Origin: Anadara kagoshimensis
Taxonomy: Eukaryota; Mollusca; Bivalvia; Arcoida; Arcidae
Direction: 5' to 3'
Length of the DNA: 64,000 nucleotides
NCBI GenBank assembly: GCA_021292105.1
Contig: CM037857.1
Coordinates: 36,649,932-36,713,931, forward strand
The notes beneath the pieces are model-generated. The model saw only the letters and a list, made by a program, of their open reading frames with translations, made no database searches and had not been told where the DNA came from. The translations under genes were made by a program, and so were the position numbers. Positions 11,640-61,700 of this stretch are shown here, piece after piece; position 1 is the first letter of the stretch; each line of letters starts with the position of its first letter.

Positions 11640-12670
11640 ATTATTGCTCCTTCGACCTGAACGCGAAAAAGCAAAGGAGCGAAAAACGATGTGGAAGGAG
11701 CAAAGTTGTGATGGCGAAGTTTCGAAGTTGTGATAACGCATAGGAGCGATATTGTAATGGCGAAGGAACGAAAATACGATGACGAAGGAACGAAGTTGTA
11801 ATAACTTAAAGGAGCGAAATCGTAATGGCAAAGGAAAATACGATGTCGAAGAGACGAAGTTGTAATAACGTACAGGAGCGAAATTGTAATGGCGAAGGAA
11901 CGAAAATACGACGAAGAACGAAGTTGTAATAACGTAAAGGAGCGAAATCGTAATGGCAAAGGAACGAAAATACGACGAAGAGGCGAAGTTGTAATAACGT
12001 ACAGGAGCGAAATCGTAATGGCAAAGGAACGAAAATACGATGTCGAAGAGGCGAAGTTGTAATAACGTACAGGAGCGAAATCGTAATGGCGAAGGAACGA
12101 AAATACGATGGCGAAGAGACGAAGTTGTAATAACGTACAGGAGCGAAATCGTAATGGCAAAGGAACGAAAATACGATGACGAAGAAACGAGGTTGTAATA
12201 ACGTACAGAAGCGAAATCGTAATGGCAAAGGAACGAAAATACGATGTCGAAGAGACGAAGTTGTAATAACGTAAAGGAGCGAAATCGTAATGGCAAAGGA
12301 ACGAAAATACGATGTCGAAGAGACGAAGTTGTAATAACGTAAAGGAGCGAAATCGTAATGGCAAAGGAACGAAAATACGATGTCGAAGAGGCGAAGTTGT
12401 AATAACGTACAGGAGCGAAATCGTAATGGCGAAGGAACGAAAATACGATGGCGAAGAAACAAAGTTGTAATAACGTACAGGAGCGAAATCGTAATGGCAA
12501 AGGAAAATACGATGACGAAGGAACGAAGTTGCGATCGCAAAAGAACGATAGTATCTTTGCTCCATCGCCATCGATTCCTCGCTCTTTCGCCATCGTGTTT
12601 TTGCTCCTTCACCTTTTCTCGTTATCACAACTTAGATGCTTCGCCATTGTGTTTTTGCTCCTTCGTTTCT
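11640..12670. repeat. 68-bp minisatellite flanked by inverted repeat units
   Basis: About 12 units of 68 bp carry ACGAAAATACGATGTCGAAG, GCGAAGTTGTAATAACGTA and AGGAGCGAAATCGTAATGGC. At the right (about 12560-12665) the same words turn over (CTCCTTC, TTCGCCATCGTGTTTTTGCT), so the array ends in an inverted arm. Because 68 is not a multiple of three and the unit has no - strand stop in any phase, all three - frames stay open for 800-1020 bp. Those frames are serine/arginine/phenylalanine repeats without any domain. Confidence 0.88.
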
Positions 12671-16292: not shown

Positions 16293-19105
16293 GTATGCTA
16301 ATGACAGATCTCGAAATTGATCATCTTCCTTCGTGTATATAAAAACATTTTGTCCTGTGTCCAGGTGTCATAAAAGGTTAATGAAACACGGCACAAAACA
16401 TCCTGAAGCACAATAAAGAATAATCAAATTTCACTGTCATAGACGGGCATCGGTACATTTTTGCAAATCTCTTCTAGATACGCTATGTGATTTTTGAGTA
16501 ATCTTGGATCTTACAAACACTAATGCCATGTGTTACTTTTGAATTTTTATGAAATAATACATTCAAAAGTAGCACATGACATTATGAATCAACGTCAGTC
16601 AGTGTTAGAAAGCATCAGGATGGACACATTATGAATTTTTGATCAGATCAGCGCTTGATTATCCTAAAACAATTTTGTTTATTTTCCAGGACAATTCGCG
16701 TAGTTTGCTTTTAACAGTTAAATCAAAACATATTCTGAAGCTCAACATGTCTTTATTTTAACCAAACACGGAAAATAAAGCAATGTTTAGCATAACAAGA
16801 GGCCCATGGGCCTGATACGCTCACCTGATAACTAATGGCTAGCTGATAGATTTAAAGACAACATAAATACTAAACCCCAATGAATTTTTTCTTTACATCA
16901 TAATAACCGTTGTATCAATACCTACAACATTCTAGTATACATGCATATACAAAAAGTTAATAGTTTTCAAGATAATTAACCATTTCAGTATTGTTTCACA
17001 TCTGTGACCTTGACCTTTGAACCCATGACCTTTTTCTATACATCAAAATGATCATTGTATCAATACCTACAACATTCTAATATACATGCCTATACAAAAA
17101 GTTTATAGTTTTCGAGATAATTAACCATTTCGGTATTGTTTCGCATCTGTGACCTTGACCTTTGAACCCATGACCTTTTTCTATACATCAAAATGATCGT
17201 TGTATCAATACCTACAACATTCTAATATACATGCCTATACAAAAAGTTTATAGTTTTCGAGATAATTAACCATTTCGGTATTGTTTCACATCTGTGACCT
17301 TGACCTTTGAACCCATGACCTTTTTCTATACATCAAAATGATCGTTGTATCAATACCTACAACATTCTAATATACATGCCAATACAAAATATTTATAGTT
17401 TTCGAGATAATTAACCATTTCGGTATTGTTTCACATCTGTGACCTTGACCTTTGAACCCATGACCTTTTTCTATACATCAAAATGATCGTTGTATCAATA
17501 CCTACAACATTCTAATATACATGCCTATACAAAAAGTTTATAGTTTTCGAGATAATTAACCATTTCGGTATTGTTTCACATGTGACCTTGACCTTTGAAC
17601 CCATGACCTTTTTCTATACATCAAAATGATCATTGTATCAATACCTACAACATTCTAATATACATGCCTATACAAAAAGTTTATAGTTTTCGAGATAATT
17701 AACCATTTCAGTATTGTTTCACATCTGTGACCTTGACCTTTGAACCCATGACCTTTTTCTATACATCAAAATGATCGTTGTATCAATACCTACATTATTC
17801 TAATATACATGCCTACACAAAATGTTTATAGTTTTTGAGATAATTAACCATTTCGGTATTGTTTCGCATCTGTGACCTTGACCTTTGAACCCATGACCTT
17901 TTTCTATACATCAAAATGATCGTTGTATCAATACCTACAACATTCTAATATACATGCCTATACAAAAAGTTTATAGTTTTCGAGATAATTATTATAATCA
18001 GAGGTAAAAAAATTTAGGTCACGACCTTCACAATTGACCTTGACCTCATTTTGAAGATACTAACAAGAAGATGTCAAAACTGAAAACCCCATGTCATTAT
18101 CTGGTCAAATAGTCAAGTTATAACAATTTGAAGCTATTTTACGATTTTTTCAAAATTAAACGCAAAAACGCGTAACCTATTTTTTATTCGAATTTTACAA
18201 AATGAACAAACTATAGCAGCCTAAGACCCTAGAGAAGCCAAATATCACATCAGATTTTTCCTGCAATCAGTACTTTCGGAGAAGAAGATTTTTTAAGATT
18301 TTTAAACCCCTAGGTCACCTTGACCTAGTTATGGTAGCCATGGCAACGCCACGAACAAATCTGAATTGCACCGGCCCATATATACTTCTGACAAAGTTTC
18401 ATTAAAAACTGTCCGGTAGTTTCAGAGGAGAATTCGAAAATAGGTGTTAACGACGCACGCACGCACGCACACACGCACACACGCACGCACGCACGCACGC
18501 ACACACGCACACACGCACATACACACGCTGCGCTATGCCATAAGCTCACATGACCTTCGGTCAGGTGAGCTAAAAATACTAGTAACTAATATGAATATTT
18601 CTTTTACCAGTTAAACCAACAGAGAAATAATATCATATACCCGTTTTACACTCAAAAACATATCTTTTGGCATCATTCAGGAAGGTGCTACACAATTTTT
18701 GAGACCAACAAAATATTCTAAACATCTACAATGTATTTTAGACTTGGACAAATCTGAAATAATTGGTTTTGGATTTAAATGGAGTTCTTGAGTATTTTTT
18801 TATTTGTAACAAACAAGAACTTATTTTAACATTTATATTTATCAGTAACACATGTACAGTTAGTCTTGTCTAAGCTTTTCATACTCACATGTTTATTTTT
18901 TTAAAGCTTGTACCAACCTAACAAACATCAGTTCAAGAGTTTTAAGTTTGGAACAGAATATACAAACACTAGGTAGGTATTATGTATGCAATCATATTAC
19001 CTCATTACTCTCTGTGCATATAATAATATGATATGCACACACACACACACGCACACACACACATATGTGTGTGTGTGCGTGTGTGTGTGTGAGTAATGAT
19101 ATTAC

Positions 19106-26560: not shown

Positions 26561-27139
26561 GAGGGATTTTGTCCACTAGTTGCTTTTTCATGATCTTCAC
26601 ATTAAAACAAGATTATATAATAGAGAAATAAATTTCATAAAATCAAATCAAACAATGCTTTATTGAAAAAAATACTCCTCGTTCTTTGAATTCCATTTAC
26701 TTTTGTTTTAAGTAATAAACTTGATCAAAGAAAAACCTGGCTTGGTTATAATGTGACCAACTTTCGATAACAACCACAACTGTAAAAGAAATGAAGACTA
26801 GCTGATTGATATATGCTTAGTATAATATCTCTATATTAAATTTAGACGGTGATTGTCCGCCCATTAAATCCATAAAGAAATTTGCTTAATACTATCTAAT
26901 CTATACATTCCACCCCTAAATTAATCTAGCTTTACTGTATATACCTAAAGAACAATGGCATGATATTGCCAAAAAACCCAGACTGGACCTTATACAGGAC
27001 AGGCCTGTTAAAAGTTAGACAGTCTTACGAAATAGTGCCGAATGTGTAGCTTATTTCGGACCCGTATTAGCTATACATGTATCTGGGTTTTTTTTATTTA
27101 TTTTTTTTAAACATTTTACATAATATATTAAGACACTCG
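26561..27139. other. No recognisable feature
   Basis: AT-rich sequence upstream of the reverse transcriptase fragment. The upstream half of the element is not present here. Confidence 0.45.
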
Positions 27140-28110
27140 CTCACCCACATATTATCAGTTATATGGATTCTGGTTATTTTGTCAAGCATCATACGGATTC
27201 CAAACAAAAATATACTGAAGATACCATCAACAAAATGTTAGAGTTTTTGATAGATAACATATTTGTTGTGTTTGGTAATATAGTTTTTCAGCAAACAATC
27301 GGTATACCAATGGGTACAAACTGTGCACCATTGCTTGCTGATTTGTTTCTTTATTCTTACGAAGCAGAATTTATGCAGAACCTTGTTAAATCTGGAGAGA
27401 AAACTGTCGCCAAATCATTCAACTCAACATACAGATACATAGATGACGTTCTGTCTCTTAACAATCCTAAATTTGGAGACTATGTAAATGTCATCTATCC
27501 TAGTGAGCTTGAAATAAAAGACACGACTGATTCCTCAAGTTCTGCTTCATATTTAGACTTATACCTGAATTATGACGCACAAGAAAGGCTACATTTGAAA
27601 CTTTATGACAAACGTGATGACTTCAATTTTTCTATTGTCAACTTTCCTTTTTTATGCAGCAATATACCTGCTTCTCCTGCTTATGGTGTATTTGTTTCCC
27701 AATTAATACGCTATGGTAGAGCTTGTTCCCACTACGGGGACTTTGTACAACGAAGTAGGCTGCTTGCAAATAAATTGTTGACTCAGGGATATTGCAAGCC
27801 TAGGCTTATCAAGGCCCTCAAAAAGTTTTATGGCCGTCATCACAGTATTGTTGATAAGTTTGATGTCTCTGTGTCCAGGATTGCCTTGGATATATTTGAC
27901 GTCTCATAGTTCCATGTTCCTTTCACACAATTTTGATTACACACGTGACGGGTGTAGCTAGCTAAACAGGAGGTGCTTACCCTTCCATAGCACCCGGCCT
28001 CACTTCCCTGGTGGAAGTTCACGTGTCTAACCTAACTTGTCAGTTCCAAAGTTTTTACTTTGCTTCTGGATTGTGATTCGGAAATGGATAAGTATGTTTG
28101 TTTTTTATTA
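27140..28110 (+). mobile_element. Penelope-like retroelement, 5'-truncated copy with RT and 3' UTR
   Basis: A 248-codon open frame (27163-27909) is followed by the 3' UTR and tail found in truncated form throughout this window. The UTR contains GTGACGGGTGTAGCTAGC, CCGGCCTCACTTCCCTGGTG and TTTACTTTGCTTCTGGATTG, and ends near GTATGTTTGTTTTT. This is the best-preserved copy in the window and serves as the reference for the others. The coding part starts inside the RT, so the N-terminal half and any 5' region are missing. The assignment to Penelope-like elements rests on the RT style; another non-LTR lineage cannot be excluded. Confidence 0.7.
27163..27909 (+). CDS. Reverse transcriptase, C-terminal part (mobile element)
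   Basis: The motifs are in RT order: MLEFLIDNIFVVFGNIVFQQ; GIPMGTNCAPLLADLF (palm motif B region); FRYIDD-type catalytic box seen as YRYIDDVLSLNN at about residues 90-101; then SYLDLYL, LYDKRDDFNF and SNIPASPAYGVF. The C-terminus (KALKKFYGRHHSIVDKF) leads to a TAG stop at 27907-27909. The first Met falls inside the domain, so the frame is a truncated remnant and not a full enzyme. Such a protein would copy element RNA at a nicked target; with no N-terminus and no endonuclease domain in view, activity is not expected. It lies 1.1 kb upstream of the spondin-like gene and is unrelated to it. Confidence 0.8.
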   Translation: MDSGYFVKHHTDSKQKYTEDTINKMLEFLIDNIFVVFGNIVFQQTIGIPMGTNCAPLLADLFLYSYEAEFMQNLVKSGEKTVAKSFNSTYRYIDDVLSLNNPKFGDYVNVIYPSELEIKDTTDSSSSASYLDLYLNYDAQERLHLKLYDKRDDFNFSIVNFPFLCSNIPASPAYGVFVSQLIRYGRACSHYGDFVQRSRLLANKLLTQGYCKPRLIKALKKFYGRHHSIVDKFDVSVSRIALDIFDVS

Positions 28111-28720
28111 TATCTTGTGGGTATCTGCTATATCTATCTCTGGACAGCATTGTAATCTCTAGCTATCCATGTCTAGGTCACATGACAGGAGAGGCGCTAG
28201 CTCAGTGTTAAGCTTTCGGCAGCTCTATACTATGTGTTAAACACACAGGCGCTTGAAATGGTTAATAAAAGAAATCATTGACCGTATCAAGCGTCTGTGT
28301 TTAAATATTCGAAATAATTTCAGAAAAATGAAGATCTTTATCTAAGTTATTTCTTTAAAATAACAATAAAAATTGTCTCGTCTCGAAAAAAGACAATTGA
28401 TGACCAATAAAAGTGCAGGATTAGATAGAAAATTTATAGAACGTTGTCATTATCATGATTCTGTCAAGATTTTGGTGTTTATAGAACGTTGTAATTCTGT
28501 CAATAAGTTTTATCACTAATGATGAGAGAAGACCATCGCCGTTCTTGTTATGTTTAGTGCGTTATAAGACATACATTACAAGACTTTGAAAGTCATACAT
28601 TATTACAACAAAGTTATTATTCTGTTTAACACACTATTTCTCACCATACCATAACACATTGCAATAAAAATCTATGTTAATAAACATTACACATATATGT
28701 TGGCATGATTCCTGATTTCA
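28111..28720. other. Upstream region of the spondin-like gene
   Basis: At 28185-28255 a short piece (CTAGCTCAGTGTTAAGCTTTC) resembles the ends of the MITE at 43718 and 47281. An imperfect inverted pair, GTGTTAAACACACAGGCGCTTG with TCAAGCGTCTGTGTTTAA, lies at 28234-28306. Nothing else is supported. Confidence 0.4.
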
Positions 28721-28726
28721 GGAACA

Positions 28727-28739
28727 TCCAATGACGTCA
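28727..28739 (+). promoter_or_regulatory. CCAAT box and palindromic CRE upstream of the spondin-like gene
   Basis: CCAATGACGTCA places a CCAAT pentamer directly against a full TGACGTCA cAMP-response element, about 190 bp upstream of the TATA box. Binding is inferred only from the motif. Confidence 0.4.
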
Positions 28740-28930
28740 TAGAGACATCAAACTCCTGCAATTAATCAAAGAAAAATGTAATGGCCATATGTTTCTTTCC
28801 TCCAAAGACAGATTTGCGTACTTTATGAACTGGATTTAGTTCCATGGCTTCGCCTCAATAACCACAGCTCATTGACCTCAATCAGCGCAGACGATACACA
28901 AAATCCGCTGGGGGCCGATCTAGACAGTTG

Positions 28931-28938
28931 TATATAAA
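28931..28938 (+). promoter_or_regulatory. TATA box of the spondin-like gene
   Basis: TATATAAA at 28931, 79 bp before the start codon. It predicts transcription start near 28960 and a 5' UTR of about 50 bases (TTCCGCTTCTCGTCAC region). Confidence 0.55.
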
Positions 28939-29009
28939 GTCGACTTCCGCTTCTCGTCACTTATAACAAATATCTTTCACACTGTTGTGTATTTACACGT
29001 GTATTAACC

Positions 29010-29256
29010 ATGTCGCGTTTATCTATGATGCGGACTTATCATTTCTTATACATTGTGCTTATTTTTATTTTGTTTACTTTTTGCGATTCAAAACCGTCAA
29101 AAGGAAAAACAAATAAAGGTGTTAAACGTGCAGGAAAATGCAGAACAAAAATGTTAGCTGAATATAATCTGGCGTTTTATGCCGACTGGTCACCTACTGT
29201 GTTCAATAAGCTATATCCAAGATACCGACCATCTGCCCAATGGTCAAAGCTTGTAG
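29010..29256 (+). CDS. Spondin-like gene exon 1
   Basis: The start ATG at 29010 is the first after the TATA box. The donor TAG|GTAAGT at 29257 is a strong consensus. It codes for the signal peptide, a Lys-rich stretch and the first part of spondin_N, ending ...QWSKLV. Read-through of the intron stops at 29336. Confidence 0.9.
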
Positions 29257-31024
29257 GTAAGTCATTTCAATGTCATTATTTATTTATTTATTTATTAAGG
29301 TTATTTTTTGTTTTAATCTTCGTTGATCATTGCTAAATATATGTTTTACCTGTACAAATGTATTTCTTTCATTTCGTTTTAAATATTTATTTGTTTGCAA
29401 TATTTGTCTTTTTAATTTTTTTTAAATTTGTTTAACTTCTGCTGGATCTATCTATTGCAATAAACATTTTATTATCATACAACCCTTTTTTAAAAGCATT
29501 TAAAAAATTATAAATGCAGGAAGTTACTGTCGTTATTGAATACTGTAAATGCTACCAATTTTCAATTGAAGAGTTTTTAATAACATGCACATGTATTTTT
29601 CTGATAAAACCAATTTACAACAAAATGCATTTTCTTCTTTGCAAATTCTACATCTTCAGCTCATGACTCTTTAACTGACCAATATTTAAATAAATGCTTA
29701 ATTCAATTGTTGTAAAATGATAATATTCTGAATACTGTGAATCCGGGAGAATTTTTCGTGTATCATTTTCACATAAATTCGCGCGAAAATATTCCTTGCG
29801 CGAATATTTTATATGAAATTATCTCATTCCGTGTCCAGGATTTGACGCCCATAAGTTCAATGTTCTTTTCACCCAATTTTGATAATACACGTGACGGGTA
29901 TAGCGATGCTAACCTTTCTGGAGCACCCGGTCTCACTTCTCTTGTTTAACCTAACTTGTCAGTTTCAAAGTTTTTACTTTGCTTCTGGATTGTGATTTGG
30001 ACATGGGTTAGTATGTTTGTTTTTACTTTGCTTCTGGATTGTGATTTGGACATGGGTTAGTATGTTTGTTTTTACTTGGCTTCTGGATTGTGATTTGGAC
30101 ATGAGTTAGTATGTTTGTTTTTACTTTGCTTCTGGATTGTGATTTGGACATGGGTTAGTATGCTTCTGGATTGTGCTTTGGACATGGATTAGTATGTTTG
30201 TTTTACTTTGCTTCTGGATTGTGATTTGGACATTGGTTAGTATGTTTGTTTTTACTTTACTTCTGGATTGTGATTTGGACATGGGTTAGTATGTTTGTTT
30301 TTACTTTGCTTCTGGATTGTGATTTGAACATGGATTAGTATGTTTGTTTTTACTTGTCTTCTGGATTGTGATTTGGACATGGATTAGTATGTTTGTTTTT
30401 ACTTGTCTTCTGGATTGTGATTTGGACATGGTTAGTATGTTTGTTTTGCTTTGCTTCTGGGTTGTGATTTGGACATGGGTTAGTATGTTTGTTTTTACTT
30501 TACTTTTGAATTGTGATTAAGACATGGGTTAGTACGTTTGTTTTTACTTTGCTTCTGGATTGTGATTTAGACATGGGTTAGTATGTTTGTTTTTTATCAC
30601 TAACATTTGCACTGACGACCCCCACGTCCTCTAAACATTTGTGTATGTTATTTTGTGTTCTTGGTTGCACTGGTACTGACTTAAAATCTTTCATGATATG
30701 TTTAAGTTCATTTTAGCGAAACAGGAGATTCTTGACGTTCCGGAGCACTCGGCCTCACTTCTCTGGTGGAAGTTCAGGTGTTTAAGCTAATTTGTCAGTT
30801 CCAAAGTTTTACTTTGCTTTAGGATTGTTAGATGGGCATGGATTAATGTAATTGTATTACTATAATTATTATTATTATTAAAAGATATTTCTCTACATGG
30901 TTTGTCTTCTACCGAGGAGCTTTAGAACGTGACGAGACAATGTTTATTTTTATAGTTCCAATATCATGGGAACAATTTCTTATAATATCAAACTAAAATA
31001 AAAGGTTACATGTATATCCACAAT

Positions 31025-31077
<53 letters not shown>

Positions 31078-34000
31078 ACATTATCCTGGTTGCTGAAAAT
31101 ATAATGCATATTTGTTTTAATTAGTATTCTTTACATGTATAAGGTAAGGTCATGTATATATGATATACCGGTATATTATTTGTAGGTGTATAGATGTCAG
31201 TGACTGTTGTAAACGTCATGCTATATGTTATATTGTATGTCAAAATAAAGTAAAAAACAAACATACCAATCCAAGTCCAAATCACAATCCTAAAGCAGTA
31301 AAACAAACATATCAATCCAAGTCCAAATCGCAACCCGGAAGTAAAGTAAAAACAAACATACCAATCCATGTCCAAATCACAATCCTAAAGCACGGTAAAA
31401 CAACATACAATCCAAGTCCAAATCACAATCCTAAAGCACGGTAAAACAAACATACCAATCCATGTCCAAATCACAATCCTAAAGCACGGTAAAACAAACA
31501 TACCAATCCATGTCCAAATCACAATCCTAAAGCACGGTAAAACAAACATACCAATCCATGTCCAAATCACAATCCTAAAGCACGGTAAAACAAACATACC
31601 AATCCATGTCCAAATCACAATCCTAAAGCACGGTAAAACAAACATACCAATCCATGTCCAAATCACAATCCTAAAGCACGGTAAAACAAACATACCAATC
31701 CAGTCCAAATCACAATCCTAAAGCACGGTAAAACAAACATACCAATCCAAGTCCAAATCACAATCCTAAAGCACGGTAAAACAAACATACCAATCCAGTC
31801 CAAATCACAATCCTAAAGCACGGTAAAACAAACATACCAATCCAAGTCCAAATCACAATCCTAAAGCACGGTAAAACAAACATACCAATCCAAGTCCAAA
31901 TCACAATCCTAAAGCACGGTAAAACAAACATACCAATCCATGTCCAATCACAATCCTAAAGCACGGTAAAACAAACATACCAATCCAAGTCCCAATCACA
32001 ATCCTAAAGCACGGTAAAACAAACATACCAATCCATGTCCAATCACAATCCTAAAGCACGGTAAAACAAACATACCAATCCAGTCCCAATCACAATCCTA
32101 AAGCACGGTAAAACAAACATACCAATCCAGTCCAATCACAATCCTAAAGCACGGTAAAACAAACATACCAATCCAAGTCCAAATCACAATCCTAAAGCAC
32201 GGTAAAACAAACATACCAATCCAAGTCCAAATCACAATCCTAAAGCACGGTAAAACAAACATACCAATCCATGTCCCAATCACAATCCTAAAGCACGGTA
32301 AAACAAACATACCAATCCATGTCCCAATCACAATCCTAAAGCACGGTAAAACAAACATACCAATCCAAGTCCAATCACAATCCTAAAGCACGGTAAAACA
32401 AACATACCAATCCATGTCCAATCACAATCCTAAAGCACGGTAAAACAGACATACCAATCCATGTCCAAATCACAATCCTAAAGCACGTATAAAACAGACA
32501 TACCAATCCATGTCCAAATCACAATCTAAAGCAGTATAAACAGACATACCAATCCATGTCCAAATCACAATCTATAGCACAGTATAAACAGACATACCAA
32601 TCCATGTCCAAATCACAATCTAAGGCACAGTATAAACAGATATACCAATCCATGTCCAAATCACAATCTGAAAGCACAGTATAAACAGACATACCAATCC
32701 ATGTCCAAATCACAATCTATAGGCACAGTATAAACAGACATACCAATCCATGTCCAAATCACAATCTATAGGCACAGTAAAACAGACATACCAATCCATG
32801 TCCAAATCACAATCTAAAGCACAGTATAAACAGACATACCAATCCATGTCCAAATCACAATCTATAGGCACAGTATAAACAGACATACCAATCCATGTCC
32901 AAATCACAATCTAAAAGCACAGTATAAACAGACATACCAATCCATGTCCAAATCACAATCTAAGCACAGTATAAACAGACATACCAATCCATGTCCAAAT
33001 CACAATCTAAAAGCACAGTATAAACAGACATACCAATCCATGTCCAAATCACAATCTAAAAGCACAGTATAAACAGACATACCAATCCATGTCCAAATCA
33101 CAATCTAAAAGCACAGTATAAACAGACATACCAATCCATGTCCAAAATCACAATCTAAAGCACAGTATAAACAGACATACCAATCCATGTCCAAATCACA
33201 ATCTATAGGCACAGTATAAACAGACATACCAATCCATGTCCAAATCACAATCTATAGGCACAGTATAAACAGACATACCAATCCATGTCCAAATCACAAT
33301 CTATAGGCACAGTATAAACAGACATACCAATCCATGTCCAAATCACAATCTATAGGCACAGTATAAACAGACATACCAATCCATGTCCAAATCACAATCT
33401 ATAGGCACAGTATAAACAGACATACCAATCCATGTCCAAATCACAATCTAAAAGCACAGTATAAACAGACATACCAATCCATGTCCAAATCACAATCTAA
33501 AAGCACAGTATAAACAGACATACCAATCCATGTCCAAATCACAATCTAAAAGCACAGTATAAACAGACATACCAATCCATGTCCAAATCACAATCTATAG
33601 GCACAGTATAAACAGACATACCAATCCATGTCCAAATCACAATCTATAGGCACAGTATAAACAGACATACCAATCCATGTCCAAATCACAATCTAAAAGC
33701 ACAGTATAAACAGACATACCAATCCATGTCCAAATCACAATCTAAAAGCACAGTATAAACAGACATACCAATCCATGTCCAAATCACAATCTATAGGCAC
33801 AGTATAAACAGACATACCAATCCATGTCCAAATCACAATCTATACGCACAGTATAAACAGACATACCAATCCATGTCCAAATCACAATCTATAGGCACAG
33901 TATAAACAGACATACCAATCCATGTCCAAATCACAATCTATAGGCACAGTATAAACAGACATACCAATCCGTGTCCAAATCACAATCTAAAAGCACAGTA

Positions 34001-37000
34001 TAAACAGACATACCAATCCATGTCCAAATCACAATCTAAAAGCACAGTATAAACAGACATACCAATCCATGTCCAAATCACAATCTATAGGCACAGTATA
34101 AACAGACATACCAATCCATGTCCAAATCACAATCTAAAAGCACAGTATAAACAGATATACCAATCCATGTCCAAATTACAATCTGAAAGCACAGTATAAA
34201 CAGACATACCAATCCATGTCCAAATCACAATCCTAAAGCACGGTAAAACAGACATACCAATCCATGTCCAAATCACAATCTAAAAGCACAGTATAAACAA
34301 ACATACCAATCCATGTCCAAATTACAATCTAAAAGCACAGTATAAACAGGCATACCAATACATGTCCAAATCACAATCTAAAAGCACAGTATAAACAGAC
34401 ATACCAATCCATGTCCAAATCACAATCTAAAAGCACAGTATAAACAAACATACCAATCCATGTCCAAATTACAATCTAAAAGCACAGTATAAACAGACAT
34501 ACCAATCCATGTCCAAATTACAATCTAAAAGCACAGTATAAACAGACATACCAATCCATGTCCAACTTACAATCTAAAAGCACAGTATAAACAGACATAC
34601 CAATCCATGTCCAAATTACAATCTAAAAGCACAGTATAAACAGACATACCAATCCATGTCCAAATCACAATCTCAAAAAGCACAGTATAAACAGACATAC
34701 CAATCCATGTCCAAATCACAATCCTAAAGCACGGTAAAACAAACATACCAATCCATGTCCAAATCACAATCCTAAAGCACGGTAAAACAGACATACCAAT
34801 CCAAGTCCAAATCACAATCCCAAAAAGCAAAGTAAAAACAAACATACAAATCCATGTCCAAATCACAATCCTAAAGCACAGTATAAACAGACATACCAAT
34901 CCATGTCCAAATCACAATCCTAAAGCACGGTAAAACAAACATACCAATCCATGTCCAAATCACAATCCTAAAGCACGGTAAAACAGACATACCAATCCAA
35001 GTCCAAATCACAATCCCAAAAAGCAAAGTAAAAACAAACATACAAATCCATGTCCAAATCACAATCCTAAAGCACGGTAAAACAGACATACCAATCCATG
35101 TCCAAATCACAATCCCAAAAGCAAAGTAAAAACAAACATACCAATCCATGTTCAAATCACAATTCTAAAGCACGGTAAAAACAGACATACCAATATCCAT
35201 GTCCAAATCACAATCCCAAAAGCAAAGTAAAAACAAATATTCCAATCCATGTTCAAACCGCAGTCCCATAGCAAAGTAAGAATTTTGAAAACTGGCAAAT
35301 TAAGTGGAAGACGTAAACCTCTACCAGGGAAATTATGCCTGGTGCTGTGAAAGTGTAGCTTGTTTAGCTAGCTACATCTGCCGTGTCAAATCAAAATTGA
35401 GAATGATTATAACATGGAATATGTGACATCTTGTATATATCCAGACTATATCCAGAACATTTTAGATACAGTTACGTCATACATAAAACTTTTTGAAGAC
35501 CTTGATAAACCTAGACTAGCTATATCTCTGCTTTAGCAAGCAATTTATTTGTAAGCAGCTTGCTTCGTTATATAAAGACCACGTAGTGGGAACAAGCTCT
35601 ACCGCAGCGTGTTAATTTAGAAACAGACAAATACACTACAAGCAGCAGGCATATTGCTGCATAGAAAAGGAAACTTGACGATAGAAAAATTGATGCCATC
35701 ACGTTTTTCATAAATAATAAATAAATAAATAAATAAATAAATACATGTAAATAAGATACCGATTGTTGTCTACTCCAAATACACTCAGAGATCTACATTT
35801 CTATCGAGGAAATGTGGTTATATAAATCAACTGAGATGAGAACTTGCTGGATACAAAACACTTGGCGTGTAATTGAACGCAATTAGTATAAACTAACTAG
35901 GCGTATCTGTTCTCTGGTTATCTCCATAACGAACACATAAGTACATTGAGGTTAACTTGTAAGATATAAATTTGGGGGTTTAACATCCGCTTTTTAATCA
36001 AAAAAGGATGCAAAGATTAATTATATGATTTGAAACATATCGGTGTGGAAATACAGAACAACACAGACACTTTGTTACCAGCACTAACTTAGGCTTATAA
36101 TATCAAAAACTTTTATCAAGATCCTTGGTCAAAAAATGTTTGCTCTTGTTGACTTCCATCAAAGTTTGGGTGTTTATCGATATTAGCATCAAAGTATCAG
36201 CTTTGACGTAGGTTTATAATAAAAAAAACTTTGATCATTGATAATTAATCAAATAATGTTTGATCATGGTGACTTTAATTAAAGTTTAGATTTTACACTA
36301 TCAAAGTTTCGTTCAGAGCTTACATATATGGAACCCTAGGATAATTAATATACGTTAAACTTATTGACACTTTTTGGTATTATACAGTACAGTTTTCATC
36401 AAAGTACTTAATCCATTGAGCATAAGCATGATTCCTACAAGTGTTTCATCTGAAGATCAAGCTTGACCAGAATAAGTGATTAAATCACTGTTTTTATAGT
36501 CTTTATACACTACACACCCTTCAAAGTGACTTTGTTCAAAATGTTTGATAGTGTTAATTAGGGACGTGAATTACTTTATCCATATGCATATATATATAAG
36601 CATATATATATATATACTTCCCTGTGTAAACCTACATTAATAAATCTATTTATTACTTCACTGGTTTTAATTTTGCAGCACTAGACGGCCGTTTCGGAAT
36701 ACAATTTCTCGTACGAGTAATTATCCAAACAGCTTGTGTGTCGTCTATGTATGTTTTACTACTGGAGATGCTCACCAAGTCGGTCTCTACAGTTCCTTTC
36801 ATTGTAATCAATAAGACGCTTTTAAGTTTGCGCAAGACGAAACAATACTAGTACTCCGGTGAAAGTGCAATCAAATTGGACAAAATTAATGTAGCCTTAG
36901 CTATAGCCCTACCACAGAACTATATATTGGACCAGTATGATTAATAAACTACGTGTACCAGTATATTGTAAACGTATTTATTTTCGAGGTGTACTAATTT

Positions 37001-51130: not shown

Positions 51131-53063
51131 GTCCCCGCCGCAACGCGGAGCGGAGACATAGAAATGCCGGGTGTCCGTGCGTCCGTCCCTCACACTTTTT
51201 TGTAAGCGCTCTCATGCCTACAAATTTTGACGGATTTACATGAAATTTATACCAAATGTTTATACTACTAATACCTTGGTCAAGTTAAAAAATCAGCATT
51301 GGTCGATACTTTTTGTTGGAGTTATGGGACTTTGACCACAATAATGACTCTGTTTTATCCAAAACTTGACCTTGTAAGCGCTCTCATGCCTACAAATTTT
51401 GACGGATTTACATGAAATTTATACCAAATGTTTATACCACTAATACCTTGGTCAAGTTCGAAAATCAGCATTGGTCGATACTTTTTGTTGGAGTTATGGG
51501 ACTTTGACCACAATAATGACTCTGTTTTATCCAAAACTTGACCTTGTAAGCGCTCTCATGCCTACAAATTTTGACGGATTTTCATGAAATTTATACCAAA
51601 TGTTTATATCACTAATACCTTGATTAAGTTAGAAAATCAGCATTGGCCGATACTTTTTGTTTGAGTTATGGGACTTTGACCACAATAATGACTCCGTTTT
51701 ATCCAAAACTTGACCTTGTAAGCGCTCTCATGCCTACAAATTTTGACGGATTTTCATTAAATTTATACCAAATGTTTATACCACTAATACCTTGGTCAAG
51801 TTCGAAAATCAGCATTGGTCGATACTTTTTGATGGAGTTATGGGACTTTGACCACAATAATGACTCTGTTTTATCCAAAACTTGACCTTGTAAGCGCTCT
51901 CATGCCTACAAATTTTGACGGATTTACATGAAATTTATACCAAATGTTTATACTACTAATACCTTGGTCAAGTTCGAAAATCAGCATTGGTCGATACTTT
52001 TTGTTGGAGTTATGGGACTTTGACCACAATAATGACTCTGTTTTATCCAAAACTTGACCTTGTAAGCGCTCTCATGCCTACAAATTTTGACGGATTTTCA
52101 TGAAATTTATACCAAATGTTTATATCACTAATACCTTGGTTAAGTTAGAAAATCAGCATTGGCCGATACTTTTTGTTTGAGTTATGGGACTTTGACCACA
52201 ATAATGACTCCGTTTTATCCAAAACTTGACCTTGTAAGCGCTCTCATGCCTACAAATATTGACGGATTTTCATTAAATTTATACCAAATGTTTATACCAC
52301 TAATACCTTGGTCAAGTTCGAAAATCAGCATTGGTCGATACTTTTTGATGGAGTTATGGGACTTTGACCACAATAATGACTCTGTTTTATCCAAAACTTG
52401 ACCTTGTAAGCGCTCTCATGCCTACAAATTTTGACGGATTCACATGAAATTTATACCAAATGTTTATACTACTAATACCTTGGTCAAGTTCGAAAATCAG
52501 CATTGGTCGATACTTTTTGTTGGAGTTATGGGACTTTGACCACAATAATGACTCTGTTTTATCCAAAACTTGACCTTGTAAGCGCTCTCATGCCTACAAA
52601 TTTTGACGGATTTTCATGAAATTTATACCAAATGTTTATATCACTAATACCTTGGTTAAGTTAGAAAATCAGCATTGGCCGATACTTTTTGTTTGAGTTA
52701 TGGGACTTTGACCACAATAATGACTCCGTTTTATCCAAAACTTGACATTGTAAGTGCTCGCATGCCTACAAATTTTGACGAATTTTCATTAAATTTATAC
52801 CAAATATTTATACCACTAATACCTTGGTCAAGTTTGAAAATCAGCATTGGTCGATACTTTTTGTTGGAGTTATGGGACTTTGACCACAATAATGACTCCG
52901 TTTTATCCAAAACTTGACCTTGTAAGCGCTCGCATGCCTACAAATTTTGACGGATTTTCATTAAATTTATACCAAATGTTTATACCACTAATACCTTGGT
53001 CAAGTTCGAAAATCAGCATTGGTCGATACTTTTTGTTGGAGTTATGGGTGACCGGCGGGGGAC
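51131..53063 (+). mobile_element. Element with 172-bp higher-order tandem array ('pearl'/Helentron-like)
   Basis: The ends GTCCCCGCCG (51131) and CGGCGGGGGAC (53053-53063) are short inverted matches. The leader CAACGCGGAGCGGAGACATA can fold. The rest is eleven tandem units of 172 bp, starting at 51201 and every 172 bp to 52921. Three unit types follow in fixed order (for example TTTGTTGGAG, TTTGTTTGAG, TTTGATGGAG), so the true period is 516 bp. Nearly identical 80-codon frames at 51643, 52159 and 52675 reflect this period and are not genes. Each unit also has TTGACC words. Confidence 0.7.
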
Positions 53064-58700: not shown

Positions 58701-61700
58701 ATTACCAATGAACTGTGATCGTAATTGATTTTTGGCCTGTTTAGGGTTCATGGAAAATCTGCACATGACAATAGAGTTACATTTCAATAAATTGAATGCA
58801 TTCAATTCCTTAAATGTATTTGCTTTGTCTGGTTTTAAACTTTTTCATCAATCTGTTTGATTGCTAAAATTACTGTATATATATTTCAGGATATGATCCT
58901 CTGTCAATTTTTTTCCGTATAAAGAAAAAGAGAAAAAAGCAAAGGTTTAAAGAAGATGATGTGAAACAACTATTTCCAAATGCAGTCTCTTATGATATTA
59001 CAAAAGTTCCTGGGCTTGCTACTTTGACAAAGTAAGTTTTCTCTTTCCTGGTGCTGTGGTGGGTGAGTGATCTATAACACTGGCTCACAGGCCGAGTGGT
59101 TTATAACACTGGCTTACAGATCATGGTGCCACCTGCTGCCTAGGTTTGATTTGGTGACCAAGTGGTTTATAACACTGGCTTACAGATCATGGTGCCACCT
59201 GCTGCCTAGGTTTGATTTGGTGGCCGAGTGGTTTATAACACTGGCTTACAGATCATGGTGCCACCTGCTGCCTAGGTTTGATTTGGTGACCAAGTGGTTT
59301 ATAACACTGGCTTACAGATCATGGTGCCACCTGCTGCCTAGGTTTGATTTGGTGACCCAGTGGTTTATAACACTGGCTTACAGATCATGGTGCCACCTGC
59401 TGCCTAGGTTTGATTTGGTGACCAAGTGGTTTATAACACTGGCTTACAGATCATGGTGCCACCTGCTGCCTAGGTTTGATTTGGTGACCAAGTGGTTTAT
59501 AACACTGGCTTACAGATCATGGTGCCACCTGCTGCCTAGGTTTGATTTGGTGACCCAGTGGTTTATAACACTGGCTTACAGATCATGGTGCCACCTGCTG
59601 CCTAGGTTTGATTTGGTGACCAGTGGTTTATAACACTGGCTTACAGATCATGGTGCCACCTGCTGCCTAGGTTTGATTTGGTGACCAAGTGGTTTATAAC
59701 ACTGGCTTACAGATCATGGTGCCACCTGCTGCCTAGGTTTGATTTGGTGACCCAGTGGTTTATAACACTGGCTTACAGATCATGGTGCCACCTGCTGCCT
59801 AGGTTTGATTTGGTGACCAAGTGGTTTATAACACTGGCTTACAGATCATGGTGCCACCTGCTGCCTAGGTTTGATTTGGTGACCAAGTGGTTTATAACAC
59901 TGGCTTACAGATCATGGTGCCACCTGCTGCCTAGGTTTGATTTGGTGACCAAGTGGTTTATAACACTGGCTTGCAGATCATACTGCCATGTATGACGAGA
60001 ATTTCCAAATTGCTGGAACAGCCAATTAATGACCATATATATATATAAGCATACACAAGAAATGAGTGATGCCACAGTAGCAAAGGTATTATACTCATAT
60101 AGTTATATTTGGTCTCAAACAGAGTTTTATACAATAAAATGTCACAAATGTACATATGACGCATGGGTTCAAAATTATGTTTTGTAATGGAAGGTCCAGA
60201 ACTTTTTGTCATACCGGTATTTTTGGTAGATCCCAAATAGAATTTTGTATGTCCAATATCAACACTGAAAGATCCATGAATAATTATGTTATATAGAAAA
60301 AGTAGACTTATCTGGTATTACCAGGCTGGTCAAAATGGCAGGTCTGTTAGACTTTTACAGTTTAAATATCAAGGGTCCCAATGTAAAACCAATTGGTCCT
60401 GGACCTTAGACCCAGGGAATGTTGATCCCCTGAAGTGCACTTGACTTCCAGTGAATGAAGTTAGACAGTATATGAAATGCCTTGGTAGTTATATAAAGTA
60501 ATTGTAATAGACTTGTGCATATTTATTTAACTGTTATTGAAATTTTATTATGTAAACCATCAATTTTCAGCCATGGCACAATCAAATTTTCATCAGCATC
60601 AACAGCAAAAGAAGTCATTCAGAATATGAATGGAAAAGTTTTAAAAAATGGAGCTGTACTTAAAGTTGGACCAGCATTGAGGCCCCCAGAAGGTAGAAAC
60701 TTCTATAAAACACTTTGATTGATTTTTTTTCTTTTTTCTGAGTCAGTCCTTAACATAATGGTTGAACTTTTGATTTTCTCTAAGTAGGTGCTTTCTTTCT
60801 TTAGTTCTTTTTGTCTGTATTTTTTCATACAAAGTATTTATGCATCATAATCATGTTAAGACCATACCACATTTATGCATTAGAAGAATTTCATCTCTAT
60901 GATCTATTTTTATATGCCATGACTTTGAACTAAGATCATAACATAAAGTTCAAGATCTGTGGGATCTTGTATTAAAATTACCAGACTTTTGGTCCTTTTT
61001 CAGGAATATTAGTTTGTTTTATGATCTAAAATATAGTTAAGTTAATGAGCCACAAAGTTCTTTTGTACATTGATGATCAATTTTTTTAACAGAAAAAACA
61101 ATTTATATCTATTCTATTTCGTTTCAGAATGGTTGACCCTCGATCAAATTGAGATACCTAAGAAAATTGAAAGGTAATAATATGTCAAAACTAATGATAT
61201 GACCACTGCAGTAGCTCAGTTGATAGCATGCTTGCTCCATATGTGGGAGATCAGAGTTTAAACCCCCAGCCAGTTTTGACCAAAACTTGAAAATAGATAG
61301 TGAATGTTCTTTAGCTAAGTACCTTGCATTTAGAAATGAAAGTCACAGGGTCTTTTTGAAGACTCACTATAAACCAATGCCCTTTGTGTCCATGGTAGGT
61401 GTCACATCTGCAAATTGCTCTGACAAAAAGGTGAAAATTTTTGAATTAATGTATTGCTTAGAAATACATGGTTTGGTACATTGTTTCTTTTTCAAAAACA
61501 CCATCCGTCGGACTATGCATTGATCGACCCCACCCCACCCCCACCCCCACCCCCCTCGAGGAGATTTTTGGTTATATTCAGTCTTGCCCCAACACCATTT
61601 TCCCAACTACGCCAAGATTAAACACACTTAAATCATACTTATCCCAAAAAAGAAATGCCAAAATTAACAGGTGACATGTAACTGAAAACAGATATCCCGT

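Follow-up and report, generated by a model that had tools for sequence, protein, structure and literature searches.

A 64,000-nucleotide stretch of the Anadara kagoshimensis genome (hereafter the window; G000:C1:36649932-36713931) holds two oppositely oriented tandem arrays of a 48/49-bp satellite, each beside the 3' UTR of a retroelement, and raises the question of whether the satellite is the tail of that element and how a single tail could have become a tandem seed. Grown arrays erase the traces of their origin, which is why the beginnings of satellites have long been a puzzle. In the arrays that we read, the monomer was the element's tail, the arrays lay between the UTR (or a truncated unit) and the normal 3' end of the element, and amplification had taken place separately at many loci. 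The fuller reading, to which we give a probability of roughly 65%, is that the 49-bp unit is the tail at the 3' end of a Penelope-like retroelement, and that the satellite was seeded when the reverse transcriptase (RT) re-copied this tail and was enlarged afterwards by growth at the DNA level.

We searched the window's own genome (1.115 Gb, 36 contigs) and found 11 UTR matches within the window, arrays being present on only two of them and one tail unit on each of the other nine. The features surrounding the arrays are listed in Table 1. Since a UTR, and for the - array also an RT remnant, adjoins an array of the same orientation, each array stands on the 3' side of the element copy to which it belongs, in agreement with the initial annotation, which had placed a + array directly after a + UTR and a - array next to a - UTR with RT remnants. 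The first exon of a secreted spondin-like gene (29010-29257, + strand; Spond_N 21.7 bits, just below the cut-off of 24; GTAAG donor) lies about 600 bp ahead of the UTR of the + array, so the window arrays may sit in the first intron of this gene, whose next exon was not found.

Table 1. Positions of element parts and tail-unit arrays along the window.
Feature	Positions	Strand	Evidence
RT C-terminal part and stop codon, young element copy	27127..27909	+	open frame
3' UTR of young element copy	27906-28050	+	UTR profile match
Single tail unit of young element copy	28056-28103	+	unit profile match
3' UTR of the element copy bearing the + array	29853..29969	+	nhmmer 86 bits, model 3-145
+ array, 13 tail units, mostly 49 bp, canonical terminus GTATGTTTGTTTTT at end	29975..30591	+	
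Additional UTR copy plus a single tail unit, 103 bp past the + array	30694..30845	+	nhmmer 96 bits + one unit
The - array, 83 tail units, 48-49 bp	31255..35278	-	
3' UTR of the older element copy bearing the - array	35289..35419	-	nhmmer 97 bits, model 6-141
Degraded RT sequence lying upstream of the - array's UTR	35529..35715	-	tblastn 62-67% identity, two frames

In element copies with a single tail, the UTR ended in ...CAGTTCCAAA and was followed by GTTTTTACTTTGCTTCTGGATTGTGATTCGGACATGGATTAGTATGTTT and a second GTTTTT, past which the sequence varied by copy, save for a short GATTA-like preference. The spacing of the internal and 3'-terminal GTTTTT hexamers equals the satellite period of 49, and the monomer corresponds, as had been proposed, to the last 49 bp of the element, namely the stretch between these two hexamers in single-copy tails such as the one behind the UTR of the young copy. 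To count tail units per copy, we retained UTR matches reaching model position 139 and left out loci fetched through arrays (L001 and L031-L060), yielding 68 copies: 57 carried one unit, none was recognised in 6, and 5 had at least two, these being the two window arrays, the near-duplicate pair L016/L029 and L021, with a diverged second unit. Zero-unit copies (9 of 89 overall, including the 6 outside array loci) appeared diverged or deleted, and tail-less copies such as the Poseidon two-start-site model might suggest were not clearly seen by eye. Folding the RNA of the UTR and tail from 30 copies gave a weak consensus with covariation nearly absent, containing a small CAAAG/CUUUG hairpin around the internal UUUUU; the UTR/tail region had no Rfam match.

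The element is likely Penelope-like, judging from its RT sequence. The open frame of the young copy reached 20.1 bits with RVT_1 (cut-off 29.6), and its sole PDB match below an E-value of 0.001 was the Tetrahymena telomerase RT (6d6v), a weak match (E 6.9e-4) that fits Penelope-like elements. With regard to the pseudo-LTRs and tandem or partial-tandem copies of Penelope-like elements, locus L028 has a second UTR abutting the end of the first. Naiad is a large invertebrate clade of Penelope-like elements with the endonuclease at the N-terminus. Among the 150 of 248 candidates scored, we identified 50 GIY-YIG places in the genome, including one (C1:3803289) that precedes a UTR copy on the same strand (C1:3806887) by 3.3 kb, an arrangement that chance alone could explain. 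A search of positions 27000-36500 for a hammerhead ribozyme gave no Rfam match up to an E-value of 1; the copies there are all 5'-incomplete, and absence from the element is not implied.

Using three monomers of the - array as a query, we detected at least 31 array places including the window (hand count) and read 19 arrays from 17 of the 31 listed places, including the + array and the second array of one locus. All were dispersed, head-to-tail repeats of one monomer at many loci, as expected of a satellite, spanning from about 0.15 to more than 4 kb, the longest (C18) having at least 92 units. For the 18 arrays with a 5' flank read (all but C18), a same-strand UTR was located 1-70 bp upstream in 13 (11 of 16 when the two window arrays are left aside) and an opposite-strand UTR in none, with a chance of adjacency of 0.0088 per array. 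The weakest of these cases were C3c (UTR of 15 bits), C16b (70-bp AT-rich gap) and C15 (first unit of 3.7 bits). One further array, C19b, retained about 13-19 nt of the UTR edge, and the four others (C10a, C19a, C16a and C3b1) had no UTR and started mid-unit near GGATTGTGATTTGG (unit-profile positions 11-15), with unrelated sequence before; these could have lost their UTR by deletion, and target-site duplications around them were not clear by eye. In 16 of the 19 arrays (hand count), the 3' end coincided with the canonical terminus or missed it by a few bases, the exceptions being C19b and C6, which ended mid-unit, and C3c, which was ambiguous. The tail origin of the satellite is thus supported by the adjacent UTRs, the orientation, the 3' boundary of the arrays and the monomers particular to each locus. 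The expectation that arrays elsewhere abut a 3' UTR held for most of them and not always, and the outcome that would have spoken against this origin, most arrays lying without a UTR, did not occur among those read. Amid their 49-bp units, the L061 and L069 arrays contain deletion variants shortened to about 35-38 bp.

We ran junction patterns genome-wide, allowing at most 3 mismatches; a reversed control gave 0 each time. We obtained 39,146 matches to the UTR followed by a first unit and 12,372 tail-tail junctions (repeat including the terminus, 49-bp period), with exact junctions at 19 places on C1 and 7 on C2; many of the 12,372 are later growth inside arrays rather than separate seeds. A 72-base pattern for the UTR followed by at least two units retrieved 216 copies. 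Exactly two units followed by the normal end, with at most one mismatch in 112 bases, were present in five tails, of which two, on C13 and C15, had no mismatch; only rows with 0-1 mismatch were taken, and two mismatches could be ACTT for GATT. Three more places (C1:17882409, C1:20079911 and C2:30632718), known from exact junctions alone and possibly carrying a third, mutated unit, stand outside this count.

The typed 204-nt consensus of UTR and tail has only four direct repeats of at least 6 bp at a distance of at least 20 nt. The other repeat that includes the terminus, TTTTGATT, 171 nt apart, gave 14 junctions, or about 10 independent events since five near-identical ones are on C12, and these may reflect new insertions that landed next to old copies. 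The internal repeats CACGTG (78 nt apart) and AGTTCCA (134 nt apart) gave 1 and 0 junctions, respectively. Duplication therefore depends on the 3' end of the element, in a comparison confounded by distance, the internal controls being 78 and 134 bp apart against 49. A natural tandem UTR copy (L028:1663-1874), joined at TTTTTTATTACACAC behind the tail of the first copy, is an end duplication of the 171-nt type.

The seed would form as follows. The tail RNA would have GUUUUU at both its start and its end, and an RT primed at the 3' end would copy 49 nt and reach the internal GUUUUU; the end of the cDNA just made could then pair anew with the terminal GUUUUU and the tail would be copied again, resulting in a new insertion with 2, 3 or a few units. 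Once at least two units were present in the DNA, unequal exchange or slippage would expand and homogenise them into arrays. The initial annotation had left the choice between tail iteration during reverse transcription and unequal exchange as the seed; the junction counts favour the former, with unequal exchange as later growth, short of proof, as they are compatible with both RT re-copying and frequent DNA slippage at the 49-bp spacing and cannot tell the two apart. In telomerase repeat addition, the two ends of the template repeat and the product can realign. The present case is similar in having a TERT-related RT and a template with repeated ends, and differs in its 49-nt template, internal genomic sites and rare iteration. 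We only tentatively extend this likeness to the proposal that a Penelope-type RT performs telomerase-like repeat addition, re-copying a 49-nt template with GUUUUU ends, writing internal tandem repeats and seeding the satellite afresh at about 200 or more loci.

An alternative that we consider unlikely, if well short of negligible, is that RT only places one unit and that the seed arises in the DNA, by replication slippage or microhomology-mediated duplication between the GTTTTT hexamers after insertion, followed by unequal exchange. Slippage could plausibly use a 6-bp repeat at a spacing of 49 bp, every internal junction is compatible with this alternative, and growth at the DNA level is partly shown by array C15, where matches recur 1,217 bp apart (from coordinates), and by C10b, where units 2 and 3 are identical and unit 1 is different. 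Against these points, the internal 6- and 7-bp repeats are nearly devoid of junctions next to the 216 copies with at least two units, and the four UTR-less arrays lack the internal hexamer: a single tail truncated mid-unit, where they start, could not have expanded by slippage between two hexamers. The age of the copies also bears on this alternative, since a slow post-insertion process would raise the multi-unit share with age. Letter-perfect copies comprised 18 multi-unit (hand count, 12 contigs) and 867 single tails (2.1%), and copies with 1-3 mismatches 198 and 14,083 (1.4%; p 0.14 against exact copies), for a total of 14,950 single tails with up to 3 mismatches, a count that may include some multi-unit copies because ACTT and GATT differ by two letters. 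Doubling the exact singles, because GATT starts only 15 of the 30 single termini read, brought the ratio to 1.0% (p 0.27). Multi-unit tails were thus no rarer among young copies and their share did not clearly rise with age, over a narrow range (0 to 3 mismatches) and with patterns of different lengths (72 vs 63 bases), which speaks against a seed made in the DNA.

It is still less probable, in our estimation, that a few source elements gained a tail of at least two units once and that faithful RNA copying spread it by ordinary retrotransposition. A two-unit source element could be transcribed and spread, the 18 letter-perfect multi-unit tails are distributed over 12 contigs, and L016 and L029 have a common three-unit old tail, though they are apparently a segmental duplicate pair. 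Mismatches among the 100 of 216 multi-unit rows listed were nevertheless scattered and mostly private by eye, and most units were closest to units of their own array. Considering the 575 units with at least 18 bits and at least 40 bases, the nearest relative was strictly in the same array for 86.4%, compared to a mean of 2.5% (maximum 6.1%) with shuffled labels (50 shuffles, every fifth unit); this share, a sign of the homogenisation inside arrays that marks satellite DNA, was weak (7-22%) in C6, C10a and C3b2. First units were on average no closer to the first units of other loci than to the last unit of their own array (mean distance 0.230 vs 0.170). A point against our main reading is that only 15 of 19 first units were closer to the consensus of their own array than to the others' mean. 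Monomers cluster by locus, indicating that arrays grew locally, many times, and private variants were found such as ACATTGATTGG in array C4 and GGGCTTGTG in array C3c. That the element acquired an independent repeat as its tail, or that arrays attract insertions so that adjacency is secondary, is hardly credible: 4 of 18 arrays are without UTR, but in the arrays read every abutting UTR lies 5' of its array, shares its strand and matches the register of the element's end exactly, and exactly one unit is an ordinary part of 57 of the 68 UTR copies outside array-fetched loci.

Edge units were farther from the array consensus than middle units in several arrays, the pattern expected from unequal exchange, and not in others (e.g. 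C4). In 13 of the 15 arrays with at least 10 usable units, similarity to the consensus of other loci had no significant relation to the distance from the UTR (window - array: rho 0.06, p 0.57), the exceptions being C4 (rho +0.42, p 0.004) and C8 (rho -0.47, p 0.04), and we discarded a general gradient of monomer age from the UTR. The claim that the UTR-proximal zone is closest to the ancestral tail stands for linkers in the - array, where TTTACTTTGCT occurs only in units 1, 3, 5 and 9 of 83 (the UTR-side unit being 0), and fails as a general rule. A test for co-phylogeny of UTRs and arrays gave no signal (Mantel test, 13 loci, r -0.15, p 0.75), at a mean UTR distance of 0.32 that is possibly too diverged; this lack of correlation weighs against certainty in the preferred account.

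Satellites derived from retroelement 3' UTRs and from Penelope elements have already been published; the tail-specific, terminus-dependent seeding is new. In plant Ogre/Tat LTR retrotransposons, tandem repeats of the 3' UTR similarly expand into satellite arrays (PMC7004042, which cites Macas 2009; see also PMC9659126 for satellites from retroelement 3' UTRs), but in the passages cited these repeats are hypervariable in sequence and length and belong to another element class, whereas the unit described here is a fixed 49-bp terminal one between two hexamers. The 3' terminal repeats of LINE/SINE tails, such as the TGTAA repeats of UnaL2, are likewise ascribed to RT template slippage at the RNA end (“slippage retrotransposition”, Tu 2004 as cited in PMC3747384), with a repeat of 5 bases instead of 49-bp units that become satellite arrays. 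Among Penelope-like elements, a 31-bp tail is described in Adineta (PMC3846280), and Poseidon of Anolis has a “tail” with internal RT initiation (PMC11167929), similar to our element in its short extension between two RT start sites; Poseidon shows a preference for cutting at ATT, and the sequence after single tails in our element is GATTA-like. The Poseidon tail is 30-40 bp long and optional, with no iteration reported in the portion of PMC11167929 considered, whereas a single unit is present in most copies here and some carry many. A review (PMC12692304) names Penelope elements as a source of satellites, and the catfish satellite Harttia HviSat02-2707 is, like ours, connected to them (PMC11955569), with a monomer of about 2.7 kb by its name as opposed to a 49-bp tail, and no tail origin or mechanism described in the portion of that paper considered. 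No title among the literature matches listed, whose coverage lies mostly outside subscription papers, concerned tail iteration by Penelope-like elements.

One genome thus holds several stages: about 39,000 matches to the UTR with a first unit, 216 near-consensus tails of at least two units, among which five or more have exactly two and two of these are letter-perfect, and mature arrays with between 20 and more than 90 units, most of which are still joined to the parent element. If RT makes the seed, retrotransposition would be linked to satellite birth by a defined, testable step (the hexamer at both tail ends), and telomerase-like template re-use would take place in the retroelement relatives of telomerase.

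Other tandem repeats occur as well. Four exact tail junctions at G000:C1:4780186-4780383, known by coordinates alone, follow a 55-bp rather than a 49-bp period. The window has four other tandem arrays, with 91-98% matches and by eye unrelated to the tail, made of 68-bp (11694-12535), 145-bp (16886-17991), 172-bp (51200-53048) and 66-bp units (59095-59988).
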